Virus record (IMG/VR): IMGVR_UViG_3300020221_000104
Location: 1-27,046 of that record
Source of the DNA: a virus
Length of the DNA stretch: 27,046 nt
Reading direction: 5' to 3' (one strand)
Within the stretch, counting starts at the first letter, position 1; each line of letters opens with the position of its first letter. A program made the position numbers and the translations under genes. Under the pieces are notes generated by a model. The model did not search any database. It was not told the origin of the DNA and saw only the letters and a list, made by a program, of their open reading frames with translations. Shown piece by piece: positions 1-25,555 of the stretch.

Positions 1-652
1 AACAGTATGTTCCACAAAACTTTGTCCCGCCCAACAGCATTTCCCATTTGGTTGTGTCCGTAGGAAGATTACCTGTAGTATTTGCCTTCGCTCTGTAGAT
101 ATTTGGGCCATAAGCAACAAAATCGCCCGGTACATACGCAGTAGCATCATTGTAAACACCCTGTGGACTGATACCTTCCACGAAACGATCCCAGAAAGTT
201 GTTTGTGTGGGGTCTTTTCCTGAGTTGTCTTGTTTTGCAATGTATACATTACAACCATAAGTAACAACGTCATTTTTTTGGTATGCAGCAGAGGCACTAT
301 AAGCGCCTTCATACTGAATACCGTCAGCAAACATACTCCAGTATGTTGTATTTGGAGGTGTTATGTTTACGCAGTCCAGAATACATACATAGACCTTACC
401 ACCGTGGGCAATACCATCACCTACTTTGTAGTCTATAGAGGTACTAAACACGCCTTTGAATTTAAAACCTTCTACCATCAACGCCCAGTGAGCTGTATCA
501 GTAGGCAAATTGCCAGAAGTTTTTAAAGCATGTGTATAAACGTAAACATTACCACCGTATTTCACGATGTCATTAGATTCATATACAGTAGACGATACCC
601 AGTCCCCTGCAAAATGAAATCTTAATTTACCAAGATCAATTAGTTGCGTCAT
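1..652 (-). CDS. Tail-fibre-like protein of tandem 49-residue carbohydrate-binding-like repeats (partial, C-terminus outside window)
   Basis: Reading leftward from an ATG at 652-650, the frame is open for 217 codons to the window edge, so the C-terminus is missing. An AGGTGA ribosome site precedes the ATG, which overlaps the stop of the gene before it (ATGA). The protein is built of repeats about 49 residues long. Trp lies at residues 56, 105, 154 and 203, each in the context (T/D)TxxW, and the G(x)Y/F start of each unit falls at 67, 116, 165 and 214. Each unit follows the pattern G-x-aromatic, then Y-x-x-x-D-x-V/I, then Y-G-x-N/K-x-Y, then P-T/x-D/x-T-x-x-W. That arrangement resembles the chitin-binding CBM5/12-like modules often strung together in phage fibres. 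Sugar or surface-polymer binding is inferred from this pattern. No enzymatic part is visible in the portion present. Confidence 0.72.
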   Translation of the reverse strand, partial: MTQLIDLGKLRFHFAGDWVSSTVYESNDIVKYGGNVYVYTHALKTSGNLPTDTAHWALMVEGFKFKGVFSTSIDYKVGDGIAHGGKVYVCILDCVNITPPNTTYWSMFADGIQYEGAYSASAAYQKNDVVTYGCNVYIAKQDNSGKDPTQTTFWDRFVEGISPQGVYNDATAYVPGDFVAYGPNIYRAKANTTGNLPTDTTKWEMLLGGTKFCGTYC

Positions 653-879
653 ATTATCTTCACCTGTAAATGACCGTTATCCCATTGGAATCGCAGTGTA
701 TTAGCTGACCAAACCCAGTGTTTATAATCATATTTATCAATAACACTTTCTTGGGGTAATACTACTGCTGTAACTCCATCATTAATTACTTCAACATTTA
801 AACCACCATCGTCAGGATTTAACCGAAATCCATAGAATGTTTTATCTGCTAGATCAGTTCCTTCATATAATCCACCCAT
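649..879 (-). CDS. Small hypothetical virion-cassette protein (76 aa)
   Basis: This 76-residue protein has no signal peptide or membrane segment. It is rich in Gly, Asp and aromatic residues (YGFRLNPDDGG near the start, WVWSANTLRFQWDNGHL near the end), which suggests a small beta-structured domain. The start is supported by an AGGAGT ribosome site and a one-base TAATG overlap with the preceding gene. Its stop overlaps the ATG of the repeat-rich fibre gene. The ending, with alternating hydrophobic residues after a GHL motif, resembles small proteins that sit beside fibre genes in aquatic phages, but I recognise no named family. A role as fibre adaptor or decoration is inferred only from position. 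Confidence 0.6.
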   Translation of the reverse strand: MGGLYEGTDLADKTFYGFRLNPDDGGLNVEVINDGVTAVVLPQESVIDKYDYKHWVWSANTLRFQWDNGHLQVKII

Positions 880-1196
880 TAGGTTACTCCTGTCAATAGA
901 GATAGTATAATGTCAATAGAATTATCTACATACCCTTTAGCAACAATTGACTCTCCCTGAGATAATACTATCTTGTTTCCTTTCATTATCTCTACACTCT
1001 CCCCGTTAGGGATACGCAATTGTTTCTTAATACAAGTATCTGTATTATCTTTTCTCAAAATAAGATCAACTGGAACTATAGAACCATAAATGTTCGAGAT
1101 ATTACAGCCGATTACAATGGATTTTGTAGTTGCTGTATATACTATAGCTTCTGTAGTACCTATTCCAGAGCTTGTGGCATTTTTAAAGTTTGCCAT
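879..1196 (-). CDS. Small beta-rich phage structural protein (105 aa)
   Basis: The protein begins with a short Ser/Thr-rich stretch, then alternates hydrophobic and polar residues in the manner of a beta sandwich: TEAIVYTATTKSIVIG, then an N-x-S segment, then IPNGESVEI, GNKIVLSQGESIVAKG and a C-terminal SIDIILSLL. The order vYTa..-N-ISN-..-IPnGeS-..-KIVLsqGeSI-..-iDiiLSLL matches my recollection of a roughly 100-residue protein found next to fibre genes in many environmental phages, where it is annotated only as virion or hypothetical protein. A TTAGGG ribosome site precedes the ATG. The stop overlaps the next start (TAATG), so the two are probably co-translated. No catalytic residues are evident. 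Confidence 0.62.
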   Translation of the reverse strand: MANFKNATSSGIGTTEAIVYTATTKSIVIGCNISNIYGSIVPVDLILRKDNTDTCIKKQLRIPNGESVEIMKGNKIVLSQGESIVAKGYVDNSIDIILSLLTGVT

Positions 1197-1202
1197 AATT
1201 AG

Positions 1203-1727
1203 CTACCCTAATGCTATTGAAGCAATAATTGCTGTGTCAAAATCTGCACCACTTCCTGTAGTTGGGGCTTGGATAGTGCTTATTTCTATGAATATTCTTC
1301 CAGAATTCACACTACTATTTAAAACAGTTCCAAGCAGAACCATAGAATCAGGTGGAGTAGGTTTAGTTACAGTGAATTTACCAGCAATAGTAGATAGCCA
1401 AATACTTTGCCCTGCTGTTGCTGTTGATGTATTTACTCCAGATAATGCGCCATGAGTTACCACTGTACCAATATCACCAGCAGCAATGTCAGAAAAAACT
1501 AAACCTACAGCTTCATTCGATAATGCGTCTGAAGAAGCTGATGCTAACGAAACTGTTGGAGTACCATTATTAGCACCAGTTATATAAACAACAGACCCTT
1601 TAGTTATAGTGACACCTGTTTGATTAAGCACACTTAAAAGAATAGAAGATGCCGCAGAAATAGCATCGCCAGATGGTAATTCCTGTAAATTTCCTTCAAT
1701 ATTAACTATAGGAAGTCTTGTTGTCAT
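1203..1727 (-). CDS. Beta-domain virion/fibre-associated protein (174 aa), member of a local paralogue trio
   Basis: After an N-terminal segment of about 33 residues, residues 34-150 form a recognisable phage domain: a TITKGSVVYITGA strand, an A-rich helix-like stretch, EAVGLVFSDIAAGDIGTVV, then GQSIWLSTIAGKFTVTKP and VLLGTVLN...GRIFIEI. The same pattern (kGdvVyi..a, GlV..diaaG, YLS..aGk.t..kP, lG.v..) occurs in many phage structural proteins of unknown role. The two upstream genes carry versions of it. There is no signal peptide, membrane helix or enzyme motif. The ribosome site is weak (TTAGGC), so translation may depend on the gene ending just before it at 1730. Receptor-binding or virion-decoration function is inferred from the cassette. 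Confidence 0.65.
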   Translation of the reverse strand: MTTRLPIVNIEGNLQELPSGDAISAASSILLSVLNQTGVTITKGSVVYITGANNGTPTVSLASASSDALSNEAVGLVFSDIAAGDIGTVVTHGALSGVNTSTATAGQSIWLSTIAGKFTVTKPTPPDSMVLLGTVLNSSVNSGRIFIEISTIQAPTTGSGADFDTAIIASIALG

Positions 1728-1729
1728 GC

Positions 1730-2326
1730 CTAAGCCAATGTAATAGCTGTACTAGACTGGAAGTTCATGGCAGTATCAGAAACAGCAAAACCAACTACTT
1801 GCACAACATTACCTGCTCCAGAAGGTGCAGTTGCTGCAGTTTTTCCAGCTACTGTTGATAGATACTGTTTACCCGGAGTCAAACCAGACATAGCGGTATT
1901 TGTTTTTTCAAAATATATAGTAGCTTGAACACCACTAGCATAAGTTGTAGTTACGAAGCCGTGAGCTTCTTTACCTGTTGTGGTTGCGTCAGCTTTTCTT
2001 GCTTTACCAGTACCAGCATCATTCCAGATATTAACTAAGTCACCAGATGACAAGGCTTCTGAAGTTACTACAGTTGCAGCGTCAAAACCAACACCCACAG
2101 GCATAACAGTCATATCCAGTCTACCAGCACCATCAAGAGCAGGTAGTTTACCAGCATCACCAGCACCGGCTGATATGACTTTACTATTCACAATTGTTGA
2201 ATCTAAAACACCAGCAGAATTTAATGCTACGATTTTACCTGCATCATTTGCTCCAACAGACGCTTGGTTAGCTACAATCTCTGTAAGAACACCAGCGTTA
2301 TTAGAGATATATTTATTACCAGCCAT
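1730..2326 (-). CDS. Beta-domain virion/fibre-associated protein with N-terminal duplicated motif (198 aa)
   Basis: The N-terminal part holds a short repeat: AGKIVALNSAGVLDST at about residues 29-44 and AGKLPALDGAGRLDMT at about 58-73, an offset of 29 residues. This 'AGK..ALd.aGrLD.t.mP' motif is common in phage fibre-associated proteins. From about residue 86 the beta domain shared with the neighbouring genes begins: ALSSGDLVNIWND, GKEAHGFV, GKQYLSTVAGKTAATAP, VVQVVGFAVS, with a hydrophobic C-terminus ITLA. Start choice is supported by a TAGGAG ribosome site. The product is acidic, lacks Cys and has no membrane segment. A structural role in the virion, perhaps oligomeric through the N-terminal repeats, is inferred. 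Confidence 0.66.
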   Translation of the reverse strand: MAGNKYISNNAGVLTEIVANQASVGANDAGKIVALNSAGVLDSTIVNSKVISAGAGDAGKLPALDGAGRLDMTVMPVGVGFDAATVVTSEALSSGDLVNIWNDAGTGKARKADATTTGKEAHGFVTTTYASGVQATIYFEKTNTAMSGLTPGKQYLSTVAGKTAATAPSGAGNVVQVVGFAVSDTAMNFQSSTAITLA

Positions 2327-2334
2327 GATAACTC

Positions 2335-2793
2335 CTAACTTAATTTAATAGAGGGATGGATTTGTATAGCTATTTTTGTAGAACTAATAGCTACACCTAC
2401 TTGTTGAATAAACCCAGTTGCAGGGAGTGTCTGGGTAAGAACACCAGTAGATCCTAGATAAACTGGCCCTGTAGTGAAATTCCATGTAGATTCTTCAATT
2501 TCACCGGAGGTATGTATTTTAGTTAAATTTCCCTGCTCAGTTGCACTAGATGTAATACCCAAGATTTTGCCTAAGTCACTAAGAACAGCTGAATCTGCAT
2601 ATGTACAGCCAGTTAATGTGGATTTAACTACTCTATGCCCACCTATATTGGTAGATGCGATTATATATAGAGAAGGATTCTCTCCCGGAGGGCCGGGTGG
2701 CCCCTGATCTGCTAAAGCTAGAACTCTAGTATCAGTAACCTCTTTAACAATGACAGTATCTATAACTTCCCTAACTACGGTAGTATCTGTCAT
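2335..2793 (-). CDS. Collagen-motif protein with C-terminal beta domain (152 aa), paralogue of the next two genes
   Basis: I place the start at the ATG at 2793. The TTG two codons upstream lies within four bases of the preceding stop and has no better ribosome site. The N-terminus has a twice-repeated V(R/K)EV-x-DT motif (residues 7-22), then a short collagen-like GPPGPPGE (31-38), which often marks trimeric fibre stalks. Residues 49-152 look like the beta domain of the two downstream genes: NIGGHRVVK, LGKILGIT, GPVYLGSTGVLTQTLP, IQQVGVAISSTKIAIQI, and a hydrophobic end near PSIKLS. A trimeric adaptor or fibre stub is a reasonable inference. No enzyme signature is present. Confidence 0.65.
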   Translation of the reverse strand: MTDTTVVREVIDTVIVKEVTDTRVLALADQGPPGPPGENPSLYIIASTNIGGHRVVKSTLTGCTYADSAVLSDLGKILGITSSATEQGNLTKIHTSGEIEESTWNFTTGPVYLGSTGVLTQTLPATGFIQQVGVAISSTKIAIQIHPSIKLS

Positions 2794-2795
2794 AA

Positions 2796-3158
2796 TCAAT
2801 TCCGCGTTACATTAGCCGAGATAGAGACTGTACCTTGAGCAAGTCTAGTAGTTTCACCACTAGGATGATAAATTTCTAAATCATATACAGCATTTTTTAT
2901 AGGAGCAAGTGTAGCAGTTATTTCATCTGAGACCTCAAAGTAAATTCTACCTGTGGAAGGTATTATACTGATACTCCCATTAACTGTACTTAGTTCTAAG
3001 ATAACTATAGCAGATTCCACAGTTGACCTGATTTGCATTTTAGCCGCACAGGCTGTTAAGTCTACAGGGGTAACTTCATCAGCTTGAAGCCAGTAGATGA
3101 CATGCTTGAATGTTGCACCTTGTTCTATAAGAGGGAACTTGATCTTAGCCGCTGCCAT
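2796..3158 (-). CDS. BppU-N-like small phage baseplate/fibre protein (120 aa)
   Basis: The arrangement is characteristic: an N-terminal strand, QGATFKHVIYW, then PVDLTACAAKMQIR, ILELSTVNGSISII, GRIYFEVSDEITATL, AVYDLEIYHPSGETTRLAQGTVSIS and VTRN at the end. The core 'PVDLTg..akMqIR...G.i.l.is...ta.l....avYDLei....G...rl..G.v.vs..VTR' is a widespread phage module that resembles the N-terminal attachment domain of BppU-type baseplate proteins. In that family it anchors distal parts to the tail. The ribosome site is AAGGT. Its TGA lies just before the next gene's start, fitting one operon. Whether it binds the baseplate here is inferred. Confidence 0.68.
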   Translation of the reverse strand: MAAAKIKFPLIEQGATFKHVIYWLQADEVTPVDLTACAAKMQIRSTVESAIVILELSTVNGSISIIPSTGRIYFEVSDEITATLAPIKNAVYDLEIYHPSGETTRLAQGTVSISANVTRN

Positions 3159-3167
3159 ATTAATACC

Positions 3168-3410
3168 TTATAACAGTTTGTTCATAACAACTGTAGCTAT
3201 AGACGCGACAGCCCCTACAATAAAAACAATACCGCCTATAAAACCTTTTTCTTTAGATCGAGCAAGTTCCATATCTTTAATACATGTTCGTATTTCTTTA
3301 AGCATCTCACTTACTTCTTCTCTATAGTTTTTGTCGTCCTCTATTTTTATGTCTATTTTTTGCTCTAATTTAGCTACTCTACATTCTAAATCTGGCATCG
3401 GCTTATCCAT
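3168..3410 (-). CDS. Small coiled-coil protein with one C-terminal membrane helix (80 aa, XhlA-like topology)
   Basis: Residues 8-55 are strongly charged with heptad-like spacing (RVAKLEQKIDIKI, EEVSEMLKEIRTCI), predicting a coiled coil. Residues 57-77 form a single hydrophobic segment (GFIGGIVFIVGAVASIATVV) ending in a short basic tail. This layout matches XhlA-like haemolysin/holin-accessory proteins and other small phage membrane proteins, but sequence alone does not settle the family. It is the first gene of the leftward operon, right after the candidate promoter. The ATG at 3410 has no clear Shine-Dalgarno sequence. The ATG at 3398 (Met5), preceded by GGATAAG, is an alternative start. 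A lysis accessory or membrane-anchoring role is possible and unproven. Confidence 0.62.
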   Translation of the reverse strand: MDKPMPDLECRVAKLEQKIDIKIEDDKNYREEVSEMLKEIRTCIKDMELARSKEKGFIGGIVFIVGAVASIATVVMNKLL

Positions 3411-8028: not shown

Positions 8029-9342
8029 ATGCGTTATGCACGAATTCTATCAAGACTTTATAACACTCCATTAGCTATTTCACAGGCTAAACTTGATGTG
8101 ATTACATCACAAGTAACGCTTAAATTACTTGCTGGTGAGGATGTTCTGTCAATCAAAGGAGAGAGCTACCATAGTCCAGTTACTTTAGCCTCTGCTAATG
8201 AAGACAGCATACCTACTGTAGCAATAATTGATGTATTTGACTCACTTGTATCTAAAAATGGCGCAGGTGATTCAGGTGTTACGAGTTATGACTATATCAA
8301 CCGTCAAATCGAATCAGCCGTATCTCATGGAGTCAGCAAGATTATCTTTTACATAGATAGTCCTGGTGGTGAAGTAGCTGGTTTATTCGGTCTAGCTTCG
8401 ACAATTAAGTCTTTATCTACTGACTTTGGTATTGAAACTATCGCAGTTTCAGATGGGATGATTACAAGTGCTGCCTATGTTATCGCGGCTGCTTGTGATA
8501 GGATTAAAGCTACCTCATCAACTATTGTTGGGTCTATTGGTGTTATTATGACACTGATTAATGTAGCTAAAGCTGATGAAAAGGCTGGTCTTGATTATAC
8601 TATAATTAGATCAAAAGACGAGAAAGCATTATTAAATCCTCATGAAGCGTTTAACGATAAAGGTTTAGAGGATGCTGTTAAGATGTTGGGTACACTAGAT
8701 ACGATTATGAATGAAACAGTTAATCGTTTCCGTCCTCAATTATCTATAAAAGAGATTATTACTTTGAACGGTAATACGGTATTAGGTGAAGAAGCTCTAC
8801 AATTAGGCTTAATTGACGAAGTTGTGACTTCTTATTCTTCTGTAGTTGCAGATGTTATGGCAACTTCAAAAACTAAAACACCTAAAGTTTCATCAACAAC
8901 AAGTGGGGCTAATATGTCTATAACTACTTTAGAAGAAGCTCTAGCTGAGAATATTAGACTCAGTTCAGAGTTAGATGCAACAAAACAAAAAGTAGCTCTA
9001 GGAATAGCTCAAGGTAAAGCTGACGAACAAGCTCGTATCTTGGGTATTCTTGAAGCTTCTGATACATTTAAATTGCCAGTGGCTACTGCCGTAAAACGTA
9101 TTAAAGCAGGTACATCTATTCAAGATACTGTTGAAATGTTTGAAGGCATTAAAGAAGCTATTCAAATGGCAAACCCAATCGGTTCAGAATCACTGTCTGG
9201 TACTGTTCAACATTCTTTGCAAGGACAAGCTCCTGTAAATGAATTAGATATGCTGGTAGGAAAATTTGAAAACTTGGGTAAAGATGGTGAAGCTCAGGAT
9301 GATTTCTCTGCTTCCTTAAACATGCTGAATTTGGTCAAATAA
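8029..9342 (+). CDS. S49-family capsid maturation protease fused to scaffold (lambda gpC-like)
   Basis: Residues 60-270 form a ClpP-fold S49 (SppA-like) serine protease: FYIDSPGGEVAGL (107-119) supplies the oxyanion strand, MITSAAYVIA (144-153) holds the nucleophile Ser147, and the general-base Lys lies in the RSKDEKALLNP segment (Lys196 or Lys199). GSIGVI follows the usual spacing. The C-terminal part from about residue 280 is charged and helical (LEEALAENIRLSSELDATKQKVALG) and corresponds to a scaffold domain. In lambda, gpC cleaves itself and portal/scaffold during procapsid assembly. A short RBS (AAGGA) and possible promoter lie upstream. Position between portal and decoration/capsid genes fits. 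An internal start for a free scaffold is listed separately. Confidence 0.92.
   Translation: MRYARILSRLYNTPLAISQAKLDVITSQVTLKLLAGEDVLSIKGESYHSPVTLASANEDSIPTVAIIDVFDSLVSKNGAGDSGVTSYDYINRQIESAVSHGVSKIIFYIDSPGGEVAGLFGLASTIKSLSTDFGIETIAVSDGMITSAAYVIAAACDRIKATSSTIVGSIGVIMTLINVAKADEKAGLDYTIIRSKDEKALLNPHEAFNDKGLEDAVKMLGTLDTIMNETVNRFRPQLSIKEIITLNGNTVLGEEALQLGLIDEVVTSYSSVVADVMATSKTKTPKVSSTTSGANMSITTLEEALAENIRLSSELDATKQKVALGIAQGKADEQARILGILEASDTFKLPVATAVKRIKAGTSIQDTVEMFEGIKEAIQMANPIGSESLSGTVQHSLQGQAPVNELDMLVGKFENLGKDGEAQDDFSASLNMLNLVK
8914..9342 (+). CDS. Predicted internal-start scaffold protein nested in the protease gene (Nu3-like)
   Basis: An in-frame ATG at 8914 (codon 296 of the protease gene) is preceded by a purine-rich AGTGGGG at a good ribosome-site distance (8902-8908). 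It stands exactly at the junction between the protease domain plus Ser/Thr linker and the helical C-terminal domain. Initiation here would give a 142-residue, highly charged, helix-rich protein ending with the same stop. Lambda makes its scaffold Nu3 this way from inside gene C, so the arrangement is a known strategy. The actual use of this start is inferred. Confidence 0.55.
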   Translation: MSITTLEEALAENIRLSSELDATKQKVALGIAQGKADEQARILGILEASDTFKLPVATAVKRIKAGTSIQDTVEMFEGIKEAIQMANPIGSESLSGTVQHSLQGQAPVNELDMLVGKFENLGKDGEAQDDFSASLNMLNLVK

Positions 9343-9355
9343 GGAGTAAGTTTAG

Positions 9356-9880
9356 ATGACTCAAGTATATCCTTCTGTAAACGGCGGGTTAATTAAATAT
9401 CCTGATCGTGTTACAACAAGAACTTTTTTTCGTGCTAGTGATAGACATACTAAGAATGTAACTGTTAAAGCTGGTCAAGTTTTAAAAGCACATTCTTTTG
9501 TTGAAAGTATCCAAGGTGGTGCTGATGCAGGTAAGGTTATTGCACATCAAGGCACTGCTGGTGATGGTGTATTTAATAAAATTGCCGGTGTTACTCTGTA
9601 TGATGTAGATGCTAGTGCTGCTGACCAAGTTGTACCCGTTTATGTAGAAGCTTCTTTCTGGGCTGATGCTTTAGTCTGGGCTGTTGATCCTGAAGTAGAT
9701 TCCATCTTAAACAGTTTTGGTAATACCGTAGCTGTAACAGCCTATAATACTGGTGTTATTAGTCCTAACGCTGCAACAACTAAACGCTTACAACAACAAT
9801 TTGTAGAACAATCAGGATTCGAACCTTTGGGTTTCCCGTCTGCTGGTGACGTTCTGGGAGGTACAGATTACAATGTCTAA
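9356..9880 (+). CDS. Capsid decoration protein (lambda gpD-like)
   Basis: The 174-residue protein lies between protease/scaffold and major capsid, where lambda encodes gpD. The core resembles head-decoration domains: VTVKAGQVLKAHSFVE, GKVIAHQG, FNKIAGVTLYDVDASAADQVVPVYVEASFWADALVW. The AG-x-V-L opening, the central iaGV..yd.da turn and the aromatic strand are the family's recurring elements. In lambda, trimers of this protein clamp the expanded shell. This version is longer than gpD (110 residues), with extra N- and C-terminal segments. A strong AAGGAG ribosome site is present. The C-terminus overlaps the first codons of the capsid frame beginning at 9873. Confidence 0.78.
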   Translation: MTQVYPSVNGGLIKYPDRVTTRTFFRASDRHTKNVTVKAGQVLKAHSFVESIQGGADAGKVIAHQGTAGDGVFNKIAGVTLYDVDASAADQVVPVYVEASFWADALVWAVDPEVDSILNSFGNTVAVTAYNTGVISPNAATTKRLQQQFVEQSGFEPLGFPSAGDVLGGTDYNV

Positions 9881-9914
9881 TACACCAACTAACGCAGCTT
9901 TTCTAACCCCATAA
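9873..9914 (+). CDS. 13-codon ORF in frame with the capsid gene, ended by TAA (probable true capsid N-terminus)
   Basis: ATG at 9873 is preceded by GGGAGG (9856-9861, somewhat long spacing of 11 bases) and overlaps the decoration gene's stop. It encodes MSNTPTNAAFLTP and then TAA (9912-9914). The reading frame then continues without interruption as the major capsid protein. The 13 residues look like a normal capsid N-terminus, so the TAA probably replaces a sense codon one base away (CAA, GAA or AAA). A short regulatory leader is the alternative. See the findings. Confidence 0.6.
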   Translation: MSNTPTNAAFLTP

Positions 9915-9917
9915 AAA

Positions 9918-11078
9918 TTGGGCAAAGTGTTATCAGGCGTTATTCCTGCGAATAAAGTTAAAAGACCTAACTGGTTACAATCTTTCTTCAGCAAGGTAGA
10001 AACATCTGTTTATCCTACAGTAAACTTTGACTACGAGTATATTAGCAAAAATATCATGGGTCAATTCGTAGAGGCTGAAGCAGATACAACTCCAGTTGTA
10101 TTACCTGACTTCGGTACTCGTGAAATGAGTTTTGCTTATTCTAAAGAAGGTTTGAACTCTTCTGACTATGAGGAATTGGTCAAACGTAGAATTGGTCAGC
10201 AATTCGGCACTGTAGATGTTTTGGGTAATGAAGCTTGGGCTTTGCAACAAAAGTTAATGTATGCAGAACAACGCTTTGAAAATCTGTTCGAGAAAACTGC
10301 TGCTGATATTCTTATCTATGGTGGTTACTCAGCTAAATCTGAACTGCATAGAGATTTGAAATATGATTTCTGCCGTACTGTAGTTTCAACTGCTGCTGAA
10401 TTAGCAGGTGATTTAGTTCCAGCTGCTAACTTGACATCAGCTGCTGTTTATAAACCTTGGGATTCTGCTAATGTTTATATGCCAGTTGTTAGTGATGTAG
10501 CTGGTGGTGCAGGTGCTAAAGCATGGACTAAAGCTAATATTGTTGCAGGTACAGCTACACCAGTTAAAGACTTGGTTAAAATGTACGAAACAGCTAAATT
10601 CCGTGTAGGTACTGATGCTGTTCTTATGTCTGCCGATGCTTATGAAGCTTTCAACATTGATGTTGAAACTAACTATAAAGAAGCGGCTAGTCAATTGACT
10701 GCATTGATCTTACGTGCTGAACGTGATGTATTGCCACGTACCAAAGACGTACAAGGCTTAACCTTGAAACGTAGTTGGCCTATTGGTAATGGTGAAATCT
10801 TAGATATTTATGTCTACGATGGTATCTATAGTGATCGTCTCACAGGTGTTAATACCAAATATGTTCCTAATGGTTGGGTAGTTCTCATCCCATCATCAGA
10901 TAATGGTATTAAAATTTATGGTCGTATCCAGCACCCTAGAGCGCAATATGCTCCAATGCCTAGATGGTTAAACTTCTGGGAAAACAGTAAAACAGGTAAA
11001 CGTGAATGGGAATATCATACATCATTCGTAATGGGTCATGTAGAAATTAACTCAGTAGTTGCTTGGAAAGTTGTCTAA
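9918..11078 (+). CDS. Major capsid protein (lambda gpE family), N-terminus uncertain
   Basis: The product carries the hallmarks of the E-type capsid family: NWLQSFFSKVETSVYPTVNFDYEYI near the start, aligning with the FF...YPF...V.L region of lambda E, and a C-terminal stretch with IKIYGRIQHPRAQ, PRWLNFWEN and a final HVEINSVVAWKVV, corresponding to the YG.Iq...aq...P...v..vq end of the family. It builds the icosahedral shell. The boundaries are odd: the frame is open only from just after a TAA at 9912-9914, and the first available start is a TTG at 9918 without a ribosome site. The next ATG (10056) would delete conserved residues. With the interrupted N-terminus restored, the protein would span codons from 9873. 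A hairpin follows the stop. Confidence 0.9.
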   Translation: MGKVLSGVIPANKVKRPNWLQSFFSKVETSVYPTVNFDYEYISKNIMGQFVEAEADTTPVVLPDFGTREMSFAYSKEGLNSSDYEELVKRRIGQQFGTVDVLGNEAWALQQKLMYAEQRFENLFEKTAADILIYGGYSAKSELHRDLKYDFCRTVVSTAAELAGDLVPAANLTSAAVYKPWDSANVYMPVVSDVAGGAGAKAWTKANIVAGTATPVKDLVKMYETAKFRVGTDAVLMSADAYEAFNIDVETNYKEAASQLTALILRAERDVLPRTKDVQGLTLKRSWPIGNGEILDIYVYDGIYSDRLTGVNTKYVPNGWVVLIPSSDNGIKIYGRIQHPRAQYAPMPRWLNFWENSKTGKREWEYHTSFVMGHVEINSVVAWKVV

Positions 11079-11128: not shown

Positions 11129-11722
11129 ATGTCAGGGGCTTATTCTTTAAGAATAAACGGGCTAGATGAACTCAGAGATAAGTTCAACCGTATTCCTAAA
11201 GAACTAGCTGCTGGTGTTGGCTATGCTGCATTAAATATAGAACGATCATTGCGATTTGATATAGTGACTATGTATAACTTATCAGAAAGTAGATTTAATA
11301 ATGCACTAGAAGGAAGCCGTACTAGATCCATAGTAGCTAAAGGTAAAAATGTTATAGAAGCTGGCATAACATTCAAGCAAATACCTATAGACCTCGCTAA
11401 GTTTCCGTACACATGGTATAGGGGGAACATTCCACCATTACCTAAGAAAAGAAAGGGACGTGTTCATTCTGTATCTGTTAGACGTGGACAGGTCAAGATA
11501 GTATACGGTAAATACGGGCTTGGTGGTTTTACTATTAGAAATGGTTCTTATGGTACTCAAATGTTTGAAAGAGCTTCTGAGACTAAATATCCTTTAGAGC
11601 TTAGATTTGGTCCCTCTATAGTTAATATTGTAGATTGGGCGATAGTTCATAATAACCTACCTTCATTTAAGAAAGCTTTGGATGAAACGACAGAAATAAT
11701 AGCCAGTTATGTGAATTTATGA
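11129..11722 (+). CDS. Minor tail / tail-completion protein, gpZ-like
   Basis: The start is set at ATG 11129, preceded by AAGGGA. The longer open frame beginning at TTG 11099 would start inside the upstream hairpin. The 197-residue product opens with LRINGLDELRDKFNRIPKELAAGVGYAALNIERSLRFDI, an N-terminal helix pair typical of lambda Z and HK97 gp10-type proteins, and ends with FERASETKYPLELRFGPSIVNIV, matching the family's conserved R....yPielr.GPS.. motif. Such proteins act in the last steps of tail tube completion and head joining. The basic middle region (LPKKRKGRVHSVSVRRGQVK) is notable. The stop overlaps the next start (ATGA). Confidence 0.78.
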   Translation: MSGAYSLRINGLDELRDKFNRIPKELAAGVGYAALNIERSLRFDIVTMYNLSESRFNNALEGSRTRSIVAKGKNVIEAGITFKQIPIDLAKFPYTWYRGNIPPLPKKRKGRVHSVSVRRGQVKIVYGKYGLGGFTIRNGSYGTQMFERASETKYPLELRFGPSIVNIVDWAIVHNNLPSFKKALDETTEIIASYVNL

Positions 11723-22693: not shown

Positions 22694-25555
22694 ATGGCGA
22701 ATCTATATAAGAGAGCAGATAAGAGTTTAGTTATAGCAGATACTCAACCATCCGGGACAACTCTGGTTAGTTTTAATATCAATGCGGGTCTACCTGTTAA
22801 TGCTCCTGCTTACAGAACATTAGATAGTAGTGATACTTCATTATATCACCCTGCTACTTACTTTTCTAGTTTCCCAGAAGCTGGTACAGCTTATCCATTC
22901 ATCGTTTTAAGAGTATATAAAAGAACAAGCATAACTCCAACAGTCCCACCAAGTACAAATATTTTCAATACATCACTAGGTGAATTTACATCTGCATTGG
23001 ATAATGGTTGGTCTTTTTCTATTCCAGCATCATCAGCTATCACTGATAAAATCTACTCGACTGATGTAAGTTTTGCTGCTACAAGTAGTCTTGTAACTGT
23101 CAATTCCACCGATTGGTCACCTATTGTAGTTATAGGTGAGAATGGTACTACTCCTGTAACCATAGACCTTACCAATGATAATACCAATGTCGCTACTTTA
23201 GCTGATGGCACTGGTGGTGTATATACCACAGCAAATACAGACGTAAAACTTACTTGGGAAGGTACGGATGTACTGGTTAATGCCAGTGCAATAAGTATTA
23301 CTCCTAGTACAGGTGTCACATATAGCTACACTAGAAATGGTGGTGTAACATCAAATGTAACAACGACCACAAATCTAACAGCAGGAACCGCTACTTTAAA
23401 CGTTAATATTACAGCTTTAGCTAGTGTAGATAATGGTACTCTCACTATAGCAGTTACTTATCAGGGTGGGGTCTACTCAGCTATATTTACGGTATCGAAA
23501 GCCAAGGCCGGTATTGACGGCACACCCGCTATTGTTTACGAGTTAATCCCTAATGGCGCTTTCAGCACTAATGTTAATACAAGTACAATTACACCAACAT
23601 CCATCACATATTCTGCCTACTCATCGACAGGAAGTTCTGCACCTGTAGCATACAGTACAGGTAGTATCTTTACCGAGAAAAGTGATGATGGTAGTACATG
23701 GACTGCGATTGCCACCACAAACACATCTACTGCTACGGTAAATAGTTCAGCATTAACGACATCAAGTAGATTCATCCGAGCTACTCTTTACACAGGACCG
23801 AATAAAAGCGGTACTTTAGTAGACCAAGAAACAACACCTATAGCTATAAGTGGTGTAAATGGTGCAGCTGGTATTACTCCAGCGATCATAGACCTTACTA
23901 ATGATAATGCTACAGTTTCTACTCTTTCAAACGGTACAGGTGGTGTATATACAAGTGCTAATACGGATGTGAAACTCACCAAAGGCGCTACAGATGTCTT
24001 GTCCAGTGCCAGTGCGATAAGCATTACACCAAGTGCTGGTGTTACTTACACTTATACTAGAAATGGTGTTGTAACAACAGGTGTGACCAATGCGACCAAT
24101 TTAACAACTGGTACTACAAGCCTTAATATTAATATTACTGCTTTATCGAGTGTAGATAGTGGTACTCTTACTGTAGTGGTTACGTATGACGGTACTAATT
24201 ATTCTGCGATATTCACTGTTGCTAAAGCCAAAGCAGGGTCGGATGGTACACCTGCTACTGTCTATGAAGTAGAATCGAATGGGGCTTTTAGTATTAATCT
24301 TAATACTAATGCAATTACACCTTCATCTATCACATATTCTGCATATTCTACAACAGGAAGTTCGCCCAGACCAGCTTATAGTACGGGTAGTATCCGTACA
24401 GAGAGAAGTGATGATGGTAGCACTTGGTCAGAGATTACTACTGCAAATGCAGCTACAGTATCAATCGTTAATCTTTCATTAGCAGCATCAACCAGATTCG
24501 TTAGAGCTACGCTTTATACAGGTATAAATAAAACAGGTACTCTTGTAGATCAGGAAACAACACCTTTAGCTGTTATGGGTAAAGATGGTACTAATGGAAC
24601 AAACGGAACAAACGGAACAAACGGTACTAATGGCGCTAGTGGCGCAAGCGGTTCTGGATCTGTTAGAGTATTTAAAGCTATGGCAAACTCTAACTGGGAT
24701 TCAACAAGCCCTACCGATACTACTTATGGAGCTGGTAAAGTAACCTACGGCAATAGCTGGAATCTTGCAACACCAACCTTGACCACAGGACAAACACTAT
24801 GGCAATGTGATGGTTCCTACTCTAGCGGCAGTACAACTATCTCTTGGGGAACTCCTTATCTGTCTACCTTAAAAGTAGGAAGCTTATCAGCTCTAACTGT
24901 AAATACAGGCGCATTGACGGTTGATGATAAATTAACTATTGGGACTGGTGGTAAGATTGCATCAGGCCAAACCGCATATGACACAGGAACAGGCTATTGG
25001 CTTGAATATAATGCAGGAACACCTAGACTTTCAATAGGAAATTCCAGTAAAGGTATTGCTTGGGATGGTACTAATTTAAATGTGCGCGGTAGTGTCATTT
25101 CGACGGGGAACGTCAACTCATCAGCTATTACAGAAAATATTTACTATTCAATTCCTTTCGTTTCTTTAACCCAACCATCAAATACAGATTATTCAACTGC
25201 AACTACAACACTACAGTCTAGTTTCAGTATTCCTGCGGTAGATATAGCCACAACACGAATTGTCTTTGTTACCTTAAATTTATGGCATTACGACAGCACA
25301 CCCGGATACGTCATAGTATCGTTAGAGAATTCTACTGAATATAGCTATCACTTTGATGTGGGAGCCAGATTAGTAGCGAATAGTGTAGCAGATACTATTA
25401 CTATGCAGTTTTCAGTCCCCATAGGGCAATATACTACATCTATCGGCGCCCTGAAAATTACCTTAGTTAATGGAGTTAGTACATCTCAACGCTGGAATGC
25501 TACAACAGCACCAGAGGCATCCGTAAACGTAACCATCATGACAAGTAAACGCTAA
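22694..25555 (+). CDS. Tail-tip fibre with duplicated 242-residue repeats and a collagen-like stalk
   Basis: The likely start is ATG 22694 (GGGG ribosome site at 22684-22687), giving 953 residues. The TTG four codons earlier lies inside the upstream gene. After a unique N-terminus, two homologous units begin at residues 153 and 395 with T/I-P..IDLTNDN, each running through AISITPS.GVTY.YTRNG, an Ig-like strand series, a G.DGTPA.VYE segment and ETTP(I/L)A. A collagen-like GTN repeat (about 632-645) follows, then a C-terminal part with LKVGSLSALTVNTGALTVDDKLTIGTGGKI, which resembles the end of central tail-tip fibres such as lambda J. The C-terminal region of about 150 residues is probably the receptor-binding tip. 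Function is by context. The stop overlaps the next ATG. Confidence 0.8.
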   Translation: MANLYKRADKSLVIADTQPSGTTLVSFNINAGLPVNAPAYRTLDSSDTSLYHPATYFSSFPEAGTAYPFIVLRVYKRTSITPTVPPSTNIFNTSLGEFTSALDNGWSFSIPASSAITDKIYSTDVSFAATSSLVTVNSTDWSPIVVIGENGTTPVTIDLTNDNTNVATLADGTGGVYTTANTDVKLTWEGTDVLVNASAISITPSTGVTYSYTRNGGVTSNVTTTTNLTAGTATLNVNITALASVDNGTLTIAVTYQGGVYSAIFTVSKAKAGIDGTPAIVYELIPNGAFSTNVNTSTITPTSITYSAYSSTGSSAPVAYSTGSIFTEKSDDGSTWTAIATTNTSTATVNSSALTTSSRFIRATLYTGPNKSGTLVDQETTPIAISGVNGAAGITPAIIDLTNDNATVSTLSNGTGGVYTSANTDVKLTKGATDVLSSASAISITPSAGVTYTYTRNGVVTTGVTNATNLTTGTTSLNINITALSSVDSGTLTVVVTYDGTNYSAIFTVAKAKAGSDGTPATVYEVESNGAFSINLNTNAITPSSITYSAYSTTGSSPRPAYSTGSIRTERSDDGSTWSEITTANAATVSIVNLSLAASTRFVRATLYTGINKTGTLVDQETTPLAVMGKDGTNGTNGTNGTNGTNGASGASGSGSVRVFKAMANSNWDSTSPTDTTYGAGKVTYGNSWNLATPTLTTGQTLWQCDGSYSSGSTTISWGTPYLSTLKVGSLSALTVNTGALTVDDKLTIGTGGKIASGQTAYDTGTGYWLEYNAGTPRLSIGNSSKGIAWDGTNLNVRGSVISTGNVNSSAITENIYYSIPFVSLTQPSNTDYSTATTTLQSSFSIPAVDIATTRIVFVTLNLWHYDSTPGYVIVSLENSTEYSYHFDVGARLVANSVADTITMQFSVPIGQYTTSIGALKITLVNGVSTSQRWNATTAPEASVNVTIMTSKR
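23150..24575 (+). repeat. Tandem duplication of a 726-base unit within the tail-tip fibre gene
   Basis: The unit starting at 23150 recurs in frame at 23876, exactly 726 bases (242 codons) later, as judged by the matching ATAGACCTTAC segments at 23162 and 23888 and the parallel protein motifs. The two copies have diverged in DNA but keep the same order of motifs, so the duplication is not recent. Confidence 0.75.
24587..24631 (+). repeat. 9-base tandem repeat encoding Gly-Thr-Asn collagen-like triplets
   Basis: Five 9-base units in a row, GGTACTAAT once, GGAACAAAC three times and GGTACTAAT again, are followed by GASGASGSGS codons. Slipped-strand copying could lengthen or shorten the stalk in frame without breaking the gene. 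Confidence 0.8.

Follow-up and report, generated by a model that had tools for sequence, protein, structure and literature searches.

To our knowledge, the capsid gene of phage lambda contains no internal stop codon. In crAss-like and Lak phages, a stop codon is reported to be reassigned genome-wide and in many genes (PMC9523058, PMC8346664).

The stretch of DNA analysed here (the window) is a 27,046-base IMG/VR virus record, probably a fragment. Its head genes resemble lambda-like head modules: an S49-type protease gene is followed by a homologue of head decoration protein D, which lies directly upstream of the capsid gene. The capsid frame matches a phage major head protein family (phrog_29, E=1.5e-16). 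Compared with the PDB, the profile of its family matches the capsid of phage YSD1 (YSD1_17, PDB 6xgp; E=1e-10) and lambda gpE (PDB 7vi9; E=0.0055), while no Pfam match was found for the protein at E≤0.001. By profile match to these known capsids, and by the gene order protease, decoration protein D, capsid, the protein is a lambda gpE-like major capsid protein. It belongs to the same family as gpE and YSD1_17 but is remote from them in sequence. This agrees with the preliminary description of the window, which had placed the protein in the E family. An AlphaFold model of the capsid has a pLDDT of about 30 at the N-terminus, too poor to inform on the arm.

Elsewhere in the window, a 953-aa protein encoded after the tail genes (22694–25555) contains two similar internal stretches (IDLTNDN...NGTGGVYT) and looks like a repeat-bearing tail fibre; it has no NCBIfam match. 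A block of seven small genes (649–3410) lies on the minus strand, opposite to the head genes. One of them carries a short collagen-like GPPGPPGE stretch, and an NCBIfam scan of three genes from the block returned no match.

From its ATG, which is preceded by a ribosome-site-like GGGAGG, the capsid frame runs for 13 codons (MSNTPTNAAFLTP) to an in-frame TAA (Table 1). An AAA codon (9915–9917) and a TTG come next, and then 386 open codons up to the TAA that ends at 11078. The preliminary description had reported the same ATG, GGGAGG, stop and open frame, and the sequence bears it out, except that the TTG, said to lie four bases past the stop, lies three bases past it.

Table 1 Features of the head module and of the interrupted capsid gene.
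Feature	Position	Strand	Basis or remark
S49-type head protease	8029–9342		Upstream of the D homologue and capsid
Head decoration protein D homologue	9356–9880	+	PF02924 (E=2.1e-8), phrog_49; stop overlaps the first capsid codons
Likely ribosome-binding site (GGGAGG) of the capsid gene	9856–9861	+	GGAG/GGGGAG-type sites precede the homologous ATG in relatives
Major capsid gene, lambda gpE-like, interrupted in the window contig (ATG 9873–9875)	9873–11078	+	Profile matches; copy with the same ATG intact in near-identical contig
In-frame TAA	9912–9914	+	Contig comparison; TAT (Tyr) in near-identical contig
Two-base difference cluster (AA in window, TC in near-identical contig)	9914–9915	+	Contig comparison
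TTG, mechanically listed start	9918–9920	+	Start codon in no relative
Second cluster (GGG in window, AAT in near-identical contig)	11136–11138	+	Codons 3–4 of the next gene (11129–11722)

A profile search of viral contigs yielded 15 capsid loci, including that of the near-identical contig described below; one pair among them (L014 and L024) has an identical capsid N-terminus. All 15 start at the homologous ATG, preceded in most by a GGAG-type site, and all have a sense codon where the window has its stop. The 14 aligned capsid proteins are 41–63% identical to the intact copy of the near-identical contig. Phe10 and Tyr14, which form part of an F[L/M]x[P/A]Y motif, are invariant across them; the codon that the window reads as TAA is precisely that of Tyr14. 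In a weak match, the lambda capsid aligns to the family profile from its residue 3, with Tyr4 at the profile position of Tyr14. No relative has a stop at the homologous site (15 loci, 14 aligned capsids).

As the capsid starts of the relatives show, the stop does lie within the 5' end of the capsid frame, which agrees with the earlier claim. Alignment with relatives was among the checks proposed in the preliminary description. Judged from this alignment, the invariant tyrosine and the homologous starts indicate that the ancestral codon is Tyr, that the thirteen preceding codons encode protein, and that the TTG at 9918 appears not to be a natural start, being unsupported as such because no relative starts there; TAA does not recur.

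The near-identical contig surfaced when viral contigs were searched with the capsid, to which it is 100% identical over the part after the stop. It is a 19,173-bp IMG/VR contig (IMGVR_UViG_3300020198_000138, our loci L002/L008; the twin contig). Across 17,509 bp, twin and window are collinear and gap-free and mismatch at 13 positions (99.93% identity), but where the window reads TAA AAA the twin reads TAT CAA (Tyr-Gln), and it encodes an intact 401-aa capsid from the same ATG. An exact DNA pattern search of viral contigs for the stop returned the intact twin and nothing else. Reads with a sense codon at the site had been named beforehand as evidence against the stop; a sense codon is indeed present by proxy, in the twin and in every relative. 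The twin record extends about 1.6 kb past the left end of the window. Five of the eight isolated differences lie within the window's first 80 bases (20–80), as might result from a mixture of strains at the end of the contig.

The 13 mismatches fall into these eight isolated positions, all transitions, and two tight clusters of two and three bases, 1.2 kb apart, in which three of five changes are transversions. From twin to window, the first cluster changes TC to AA at the stop; the second changes AAT to GGG and replaces two residues right at the beginning of the gene that follows the capsid gene. When 13 positions were drawn at random, at least two adjacent clusters arose in 3.5e-5 of trials. 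In both clusters every window base is a repeat of the one that precedes the cluster (AA following A, GGG following G), a pattern noticed post hoc whose chance under random substitution is about (1/3)^5=0.4% by hand calculation. No copy of the altered stretches of at least 11 bases, as a source of misassembly, was found elsewhere in the window. A search for relatives of the gene at 11129–11722 returned the twin contig alone, with either allele at 11136–11138 a candidate for the older state. The two-cluster, run-making pattern resembles run-type miscalls rather than ordinary divergence, a likeness that is suggestive and not proof.

Because the twin is intact, Tyr14 is invariant and the mismatch clusters are improbable under random placement and run-making, we consider that the TAA at 9912–9914 is probably a sequence error, either a read error in thin coverage or an assembly or consensus error. 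The real capsid gene of this phage would then read Tyr-Gln at the site and be translated uninterrupted from the ATG at 9873, the TC-to-AA change having been introduced during sequencing or assembly rather than carried by the phage itself. On the contigs compared here, the stop appears to be private to one contig and not a biological feature of the phage lineage. What weighs against an error is that tandem multi-base mutations are also natural, so that the clusters are suggestive only.

The main rival is that the phage or prophage copy sampled carries a genuine nonsense mutation of its own (tandem TC to AA), which we regard as unlikely but worth serious consideration. Such a mutation likewise accounts for a stop common to no relative, and error-prone polymerases are known to generate tandem double substitutions. 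A copy so mutated would have impaired capsid production unless rescued by complementation or suppression; yet the remaining structural genes of the window are all full length (terminase, 656 aa; portal, 483; protease, 437; tape measure, 2097), and the second odd cluster 1.2 kb away argues for a common artefact. The bacterial genomes searched gave no relative and therefore pointed to neither a host nor a prophage copy, and the phage records searched gave no capsid match. Sequencing error and nonsense mutation are the two options of the preliminary description that the evidence leaves.

It had also offered efficient readthrough or suppression, or stop-and-restart translation, as a control of capsid dosage. 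Were the stop real and expressed, control of dosage by stop suppression would be its meaning, with support limited to a single contig. We consider programmed readthrough, a suppressor tRNA or restart at the TTG very improbable. The frame is open past the stop and the TTG lies close downstream, but in a lineage regulating capsid dosage through a stop, the stop should recur from contig to contig, and this one is missing in the 99.93% identical contig and in all relatives, which leaves readings of translational control without support. The TTG has no ribosome site, as had been noted, and starting there would lose both invariant residues, F10 and Y14. A tRNA search of the window, itself a 27-kb fragment, found no gene, and hence no suppressor reading UAA. 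There is similarly little chance that a real variant carries the ochre codon yet produces capsid, either by suppression in the host or by restarting translation at the TTG at 9918. That the capsid naturally starts past the stop, the 13 upstream codons being non-coding or a leader, is scarcely credible and is contradicted by the alignment. A TTG start is formally available, but in all 14 relatives the gene opens with the homologous ATG behind a ribosome site and the F[L/M]x[P/A]Y motif is encoded, and the weak match of the family profile to lambda gpE begins at residue 3 of gpE.

The observation of an in-frame stop is thus correct and the biology ordinary. When a single metagenome contig shows an essential gene cut short by a stop codon, caution is called for and comparison with a second assembly should come first; here that comparison removes the stop. 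Stop-codon reassignment has no support in the window, in keeping with the earlier judgement that general TAA recoding was unlikely: TAA is the commonest terminator in the window, ending 13 of the 25 plausible genes, and the capsid gene is the only listed gene with an internal TAA or any other internal stop. The window shares with the stop-recoding crAss-like and Lak phages the presence of an in-frame stop inside a phage gene. In those phages the recoding is reported to be genome-wide, whereas the window has one private TAA, in one contig, in which TAA is an ordinary stop (PMC9523058, PMC8346664).
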